A DNA stretch of 64,000 nt from Candidatus Nitrososphaera gargensis Ga9.2 (GTDB taxonomy: Archaea > Thermoproteota > Nitrososphaeria > Nitrososphaerales > Nitrososphaeraceae): the NCBI RefSeq assembly GCF_000303155.1, contig NC_018719.1:868001-932000 (forward strand), read 5' to 3'. The notes below the pieces were generated by a model, which saw nothing but the letters and a program-made list of their open reading frames with translations, was not told the DNA's origin and made no database searches. The position numbers and the translations under genes were made by a program. This document shows positions 17,688-23,871 of this stretch, one piece after another. Numbering within the stretch: position 1 is the first letter of the stretch; each line of letters starts with the position of its first letter.

Positions 17688-18338
17688 GTGGGAGGAAGGC
17701 CCTACCTAGCTGTTCTCCCCATATTGATGATGATCGTGGTTCCTTCTGCTGCTGGTATTGCTTATGGTCACGGCATTCAGTCAGGTCCCGTAGGTAGGCC
17801 CATAAGAATCGATAATGAACAATTCTCTGACAATACTGTTACCACAGACGATGTTGTTATCATAACAGGCGAGATCAGAAGCGTTGTTGACAGGCCGGTG
17901 AAGCTGGTCCCACACATTTATGTCGATCATGACGCAGTGCCACCGTACACCAACGTGCTTGCGACCATCTACCCTCCACTCAAGAATCAATCGATATGGT
18001 ACTTTAGGGTGGAGCACAACCTGCCAAATCCTACGGTACTTGGACCCCGCGAAACATAAACTATGAAATCAAGCTCTATCCTTTGAAGGCTGGCTCGTAT
18101 CATGTCCGTACGTATATCTTGGCAGATTTCGGGCCGCATCTTGGCCGCGGAGCAACAGTTAATGTAATGTAACTGGTGAAACTTTGCCTTGCAGGCAAGC
18201 GATTATCCCTCCATTGGGAACTGGTTTGGGCAGTTCAACCATGATGGTTTCATTCAGCTTGTTGCCGTAATTGCCGTCATTCTGATTTCAATGCTGGCCA
18301 TAAAAGAAAGGAACAAACCTGCAGAGATCGTGCGCTAA
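17688..18338 (+). pseudogene. Decayed AmoB/PmoB-like copper monooxygenase subunit B
   Basis: The first frame (GTG 17688 to 18059) has a signal peptide ending AYGHG. The pattern R-x-IRI-x2-E-x-FS, then TGEIRSVVDR, matches the N-terminal cupredoxin of archaeal AmoB. A frameshift near 18030 leads to YEIKLYPLKAGSYHVRT and GPHLGRGATVNV, matching the AmoB pattern HVHT...GPGLGPGQTV. A 5-bp tandem duplication (AATGT, 18161-18170) and another shift then separate a C-terminal piece with one membrane helix ending at TAA 18338. The copper-binding HVHT is HVRT here, while the N-terminal His after the signal is kept. No amoA or amoC lies nearby. Confidence 0.72.
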
Positions 18339-22763: not shown

Positions 22764-23871
22764 ATGGCAGGCTGGTTGGCAGCCCCGGTAATAGCCGGAT
22801 TAGCTGTCGGTGTCGCGTTTGTGCTTTTATTTTCGTTTTTGCTGCCTACAGTGGCTAGCCAGCAGCATGACAGAGTGGTATTCTCCAGCCTGATGAACAG
22901 AACTGATACCTACCAGCTATACATTGTAAATGATGATGGGACAGGTCTGATGAAGCTGACTGAAGATGATGGCATGTGGTATTTCGAGCCGGTATCGTCG
23001 CCTGATGGCTCAAAGATAGTGTATGTTACTCAGTAGCTTTTTTAATTTGCCTTCAGTTGGCAGGAAAGTTGAAGTTGGTCTACATTTCATAAATGCAGAT
23101 GGAACAAACAAAGTGCATTTGACTGATTCATCCGATGGTCTTATTGGTTGCTATGTATGGTCTCCAGACGGCACAAAAATAGCCTATGAGGCAAATGAGG
23201 ATATTTTTGTAGTGAATGTTGATGGAACAAATAATATCAAGAACCTGGCAAATGATGGCGGTACGACAGATGATTTCAAACCAACATGGGCATCAAATGA
23301 CAAGATCATTTTTGAAAGTGTAGTTTTTGATAAAGACAAGAGATCATTTAGAGCGTCTTCTTTCAAAGAATAGATATTTTAACACTGGAGAAATAAGGAA
23401 GCTATTCGATTTTAATTATAATGTTAGCGGCAGTCATGTTTGGTCACCGGATTTGAACAAGACTGCCTTTCTTCAAGCAGAAGACGAATTCAGTCCCGCA
23501 AATCTTTACATCATGAATGCTGATGGTCAGAATCAAACCCGGCTAGCTGCAACAGGCGAATTTTTGTTTGGAGGAGGGCCTCTGGTGTGGTCGCCTGATA
23601 GCACCAGAATAGCCTTTGGAACGATTAGAGGGATATATGTGATTGATATCAGCAACGGCTCTTTTAGAGATCTTACAGGTAATGATCATGATGGCAACTT
23701 GTTTGGTTTTCAGATAGACAAAAGATAGCTCTTACAAGGATAATTTCTGAAGAAGTGGGCATCTATGTCATGAATTCTGATGGCTCTGGACAAAAGCAGA
23801 TTGCCAAGATGAAACCATCGATTGTAAACACCGCCTCTGGACTGGATAAACTAAACTCTGCTTCCAAATAA
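22764..23871 (+). pseudogene. TolB-like propeller protein, multiple frameshifts
   Basis: Consecutive frames each carry parts of one secreted propeller. 22764-23036 has a signal helix and the blade YIVNDDGTGLMKLTEDD. 23023-23373 has FINADGTNKVHLTD and VWSPDGTKIAYEA. 23327-23728 has YIMNADGQNQTRLA and VWSPDSTRIAFG. A last piece with YVMNSDGSGQKQIAKM ends at TAA 23869-23871. At least three shifts occur, near 23030, 23370 and 23725. Blade motifs run in order across the joins, so this was one gene of about 365 codons. It is a relative of the intact 2367 gene. Confidence 0.8.

Follow-up and report, generated by a model that had tools for sequence, protein, structure and literature searches.

An AmoB-like pseudogene remnant in Nitrososphaera and its intact relatives among AmoB-related proteins of AOA

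AOA genomes are described as having a single amoB copy (PMC3835317, PMC10030591), and in Candidatus Nitrososphaera gargensis Ga9.2 that gene is intact at G000:C1:1966244. Lying 1.08 Mb away is an AmoB-like pseudogene remnant at positions 17688-18338 of the window, the 64,000-nucleotide stretch analysed here (G000:C1:868001-932000; the genome is one contig, 2,833,868 bases long). A first-pass annotation took this remnant for a divergent, decaying second AmoB-type protein with a changed copper site, left by a second copper monooxygenase or by a repurposed subunit.

The interrupted gene and its lesions

AmoB landmarks are distributed across shifted frames: signal peptide, mature N-terminal His (17769-17771), RIDNEQFSD, TGEIRSVVDRP, YHVRT, GPHLGRGATVNV, and C-terminal helix. 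Frame reading and alignment to relatives give the following parts.

17688-18059, + strand: piece 1 of the AmoB-like pseudogene, with GTG start, signal peptide, RIDNEQFSD, TGEIRSVVDRP, and IYPP..WYFRVEHNLPN
18059-18171, + strand: piece 2, in a shifted frame (frame 17690..), reading NYEIKLYPLKAGSYHVRTYILADFGPHLGRGATVNVM and a stop
18160-18172, + strand: 5-bp tandem repeat, TAATG TAATG TAA = TAATGTAATGTAA
18180-18338, + strand: piece 3, in the first frame again, reading NFALQASDYPSIGNWFGQFNHDG, followed by the hydrophobic helix LVAVIAVILISMLAI at the C-terminus and a stop

The frame that begins at 17688 translates as VGGRPYLAVLPILMMIVVPSAAGIAYGHGIQ...RPIRIDNEQFSDNT...IITGEIRSVVDRPVKL...IWYFRVEHNLPNPTVLGPRET and is closed by a premature TAA at 18057-18059, which follows the first frameshift; near 18053-18058 the gene is one base short relative to its relatives. 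Piece 2 contains the copper-ligand motif, in which HxH has become HVR (His at 18101-18103, Arg at 18107-18109, codon CGT). The 5-bp tandem repeat interrupts its frame immediately 3' of GATVNV and marks the second frameshift (18160-18172). The first frame picks up again at 18180 with NFALQASDYPSIGNWFGQFNHDGFIQLVAVIAVILISMLAIKERNKPAEIVR and a stop; because the repeat alone leaves the helix of piece 3 out of frame, a third frameshift most likely lies near 18176-18182 (about 18180). Frame reading thus confirms what the first-pass annotation had seen here: the AmoB order of the landmarks with HVRT among them, two or more frameshifts, and a 5-bp tandem duplication. The window copy as read, truncated and with one ligand lost, is predicted to be incapable of the copper handling proposed below for its relatives.

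AmoB-L, a group of AmoB-related proteins with intact members

Joined with X at the breaks and used as a BLASTP query, the window pieces match the genome's own AmoB at 32% identity (E=3e-21) and their closest relatives at 42-44% identity (E 1e-32 to 1e-37); the similarity to AmoB is therefore above chance, and the homology runs across the AmoB domain. Relatives were sought in 18 genomes of the genus and 400 genomes of the order, and the name AmoB-L is used here for AmoB-related proteins distinct from each genome's own amoB; those closest to the window copy are G017:C1:257799 (44%), G001:C1:1361087 (42%), and G039:C63 (39%). The window copy matches intact AmoB-L members better than AmoB, including in the segment between strands: this middle segment, absent from AmoB, aligns convincingly with the relatives (IYPPLKNQSIWYFRVEHNLPN vs IYPPYRDQSSWYFRVEHRLPS), and over residues 76-120 the window copy is identical to L054 and L053 at 24-26 of 45 positions (53-58%), as against 3 of 45 for AmoB. 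The GRGATVNV of the window copy is closer to the genome's own AmoB than to its orthologues; recent gene conversion from amoB was considered as the source of this motif and rejected, as no matching DNA stretch is found there.

The window pieces match no Pfam or NCBIfam model; the profile match by which the annotation proposed to check the AmoB assignment comes instead from the intact relatives, which match Pfam Monooxygenase_B (PF04744). Of those scanned, L050 and a younger duplicate, L127, score above the curated cut-off, and the long forms described below fall under it. A PDB search with a four-sequence profile returns archaeal AmoB 4o65 first (E=3e-4), followed mostly by PmoB chains at E near 1. 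A domain model built from AmoB-like sequences (pLDDT 77) likewise matches 4o65 best in the PDB (E=4e-8), and several PmoB/AmoB chains come among the next matches alongside other immunoglobulin-like folds. True AmoB is absent from the alignment behind the model, but three recent AmoB duplicates are in it, which makes the fold test almost but not fully independent of AmoB. A full-length model of the long form (4 sequences; pLDDT 53, low confidence) was left out of the fold search. In a maximum-likelihood tree the window copy groups with L052, L053, L054, L048, L050, L051, and L121 (support 95/95), in a clade separate from all 18 sampled AmoB, one Nitrosocaldaceae AmoB included; its terminal branch is long (1.2) and its position inside the AmoB-L clade is not fixed. 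A divergent, decaying second AmoB-type protein is thus well supported, by sequence homology, by the tree, by the fold match, and by the existence of intact relatives.

AmoB (4o65, PF04744) is the best sequence and fold match of AmoB-L and shares with it the signal peptide, mature N-terminal His, RI(D/E)xExFS strand, HxH, GxGxTxxV domain end, and C-terminal membrane helix. AmoB-L differs in forming its own clade, in its longer, different between-strand segment, in lacking the ...RPWQVI C-terminus, and in being unlinked to amoA and amoC; the breaks and HVR are differences of the window copy only. PmoB resembles AmoB-L in fold and in its HVHA/HVHT, with which the HxH region aligns, but AmoB-L has neither the C-terminal cupredoxin domain nor PmoA/PmoC neighbours.

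AmoB-L occurs in two forms. In the long form (360-388 aa; L054, L052) the AmoB-like domain is followed by one helix and then by several more membrane helices, their number being estimated; its membrane part matches no known family. It is found in 4 of 70 Nitrososphaeraceae, intact in G001 (TTG start) and G039 (JAJPHM010000005.1, Centralia_MAG_167) and broken in the window and in G017, a 2.53-Mb relative with a premature TAA at the end of the signal peptide where G001 has TAC (Tyr). The window copy ends after one helix, and no remnant of the multi-helix extension is present 3' of it. The short form (about 217 aa, single C-terminal helix; L043-L048, L050, L120) belongs to Nitrosopumilaceae, with clear members in about 8 of 250 genomes, some of which have three or more copies. 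In a pattern scan the Centralia MAG was the only match among genome contigs, and viral contigs gave none.

The three AmoB-like copies of one genome, G160 (L043, L044, and L045), sit within clusters of many signal-peptide proteins that start with MKTRLL or MKxR, and the cluster neighbours scanned matched no Pfam family. Two Nitrosopumilaceae genomes contain younger AmoB duplicates of 187-190 aa (L125:5001-5570, L126:5004-5564, L127:5001-5564), which have AHD...YHIHT/S and an altered C-terminus, are nested within AmoB in the tree, and lie away from the amo cluster. A 326-aa protein of G006 (L016:949-1929) has a PEFG-type C-terminal sorting signal and a remote AmoB-like domain in which HxD stands in place of HxH.

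Three His, the one at the mature N-terminus and the two of HxH (H28, H152, and H154), are invariant in an 11-member AmoB-L alignment; these positions correspond to PmoB His33, His137, and His139, which are conserved in AOA AmoB (PMC4836417). In an alignment of 14 rows that also includes AmoB and the window copy, the sole exception at the last HxH His is the Arg of the window copy (HG...HVR). The changed copper site is thus real in the window copy but is not a family trait, since intact relatives of the main clade keep HVHS/HIHT; HVR may simply have arisen as the gene decayed. In a side branch (L122, L124, and L049) the N-terminal His is lost and RIHS or NIRS replaces HxH; because this subfamily has lost the triad, copper is apparently not essential to every AmoB-L member.

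Between two Nitrososphaera orthologues dN/dS is about 0.23 (0.17 in the AmoB-like part and 0.30 in the membrane part), and the other pairs tested give about 0.15-0.3; AmoB-L genes are therefore kept by purifying selection, and because selection has kept them the stop in G017 is probably recent.

The frameshifts could instead be sequencing or assembly errors, the gene being intact in the living strain and encoding a functional AmoB-L in which one copper ligand is replaced. The codon-position base composition of pieces 1 and 3 is not unlike that of intact genes, intact AmoB-L with an altered HxH exist (L122, L124), and a second gene in the window, a TolB-like beta-propeller gene at 22764-23728, is likewise split over three frames, which would make it either a further pseudogene or a hint that the assembly contains frameshift errors. 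This explanation is nevertheless unlikely: one of the breaks is a 5-bp tandem repeat, none of them falls within a homopolymer of 5 or more, a copper ligand has been substituted in addition, the terminal branch leading to the window copy is long, and the G017 orthologue is broken as well.

Genomic context and possible AMO partners

Full-length AmoA is present as one copy in each of 13 genomes searched; the probe was PF12942, as PF02461 matched nothing, true archaeal AmoA included. The amoA and AmoC genes are at least 50 kb from AmoB-L, mostly hundreds of kb to over 1 Mb, or on other contigs. In complete genomes the 50 kb to either side of each AmoB-L gene contain no AmoC-family match, and neither a full-length AmoA-like nor an AmoC-like gene was found beside an intact AmoB-L member; the intact orthologues that the annotation called for therefore exist, but none is near amoA or amoC. 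AmoB-L is thus neither linked to amoA/amoC nor the sole AmoB of its genomes. Lack of linkage is a weak test in Nitrososphaera, because its amo genes are dispersed (PMC10030591), and a better one in Nitrosopumilaceae, where they are clustered (PMC3835317, PMC6790972). Genes next to AmoB-L encode secreted proteins and proteins that look PhaE-like by eye, and the neighbours of intact members match no informative Pfam family.

Five small proteins reproduce a single AmoA loop almost exactly, with KYPRPTLPPYMTPIEPQxG vs KYPRPTLPAYMTPIEPQVGKF in AmoA, and are otherwise unrelated to AmoA (L128:4554-5174, L129:4932-5627, L130:4908-5249, L131:4407-4838, and L044:4268-4651). Three have an HTH-like sequence and a membrane helix, two have short membrane segments, and one of the genes is 3.2 kb from an AmoB-like gene (L044). 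Second PF12942 matches tend to co-occur with AmoB-like genes in Nitrosopumilaceae (5 of 9 carriers vs 13 of 196 others; Fisher p=3e-4 with kinship ignored), and some of these matches may be split or duplicate amoA. It is possible that these proteins are sensors or decoys that mimic AmoA.

AmoB-L might be an alternative AMO subunit that sometimes replaces AmoB, working with the single AmoA and an extra AmoC, in which case the window gene would be a dead copy of that subunit. AmoB homology, the kept copper triad, and the extra amoC copies of several AmoB-L carriers are consistent with such a role, which is made improbable by the absence of linkage to amo genes, by the missing AmoB C-terminus, and by the longer, different segment that replaces the between-strand part of AmoB. 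In addition, the long form is in just 4 of 70 Nitrososphaeraceae, although extra amoC copies are common there (PMC10030591). Like AmoB-L, these extra amoC genes are AMO-type genes found apart from amoA and amoB, but they are AmoC paralogues produced by genus-level duplication (PMC10030591), whereas AmoB-L is old and divergent. A second copper monooxygenase, one of the two origins considered in the first-pass annotation, whose own AmoA/AmoC-like partners were lost from this genome, has AmoB homology alone in its favour and is very unlikely to have existed, given one full-length AmoA per carrier, AmoC genes far off, and intact members with no amo neighbours.

Proposed role of AmoB-L and its meaning

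The reading that probably holds is that the window gene is a pseudogene of a stand-alone family, AmoB-L, which is copper-binding, membrane-anchored, and active outside AMO, and which is being lost in Nitrososphaera. Among the earlier readings a repurposed subunit fits best. Intact AmoB-L is predicted to be exported, N-terminally processed, and anchored to the outer face of the membrane, where, as at the CuB site of AmoB, the mature N-terminal His and the two His of HxH would coordinate a copper ion on the external side of the cytoplasmic membrane. Since no AmoA/AmoC partners are encoded beside it, AmoB-L is proposed to bind copper and hand it on instead of oxidising ammonia, acting most probably in copper binding, delivery, or uptake outside the AMO complex. 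The window copy would have been inactivated by its frameshifts, with one copper ligand lost; these frameshifts, together with the signal-peptide stop in G017, point to loss of the family in Nitrososphaera.

The CopC/CopD fusions of AOA, described in N. viennensis and raised under copper shortage (PMC7785015), offer a parallel to the long form: in both, a single chain has an outside beta-domain with an N-terminal His placed ahead of several membrane helices. The likeness is one of layout alone, with no detectable sequence relation, and Pfam finds no CopC or CopD domain in intact long forms.

A search of openly available full-text literature returned no description of AmoB paralogues, and AmoB-L appears to be a previously overlooked family in AOA. 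Tentatively, AOA may carry a free-standing family with an AmoB-type copper site outside AMO, for example a copper importer or metallochaperone on the AmoB fold. It is perhaps as old as AmoB, because all sampled AmoB, that of Nitrosocaldaceae included, cluster together.

On its own the broken gene of the window is a modest finding; more interest attaches to the family it comes from. One practical consequence for metagenomics is that a divergent match to an amoB model does not necessarily represent AMO. With its triad under purifying selection and no AmoA or AmoC, AmoB-L would offer a natural test of what a lone AmoB copper site does, whether catalysis, storage, or delivery, and so has implications for the long-running debate about what CuB does in copper membrane monooxygenases, as well as for the supply of copper to AMO.
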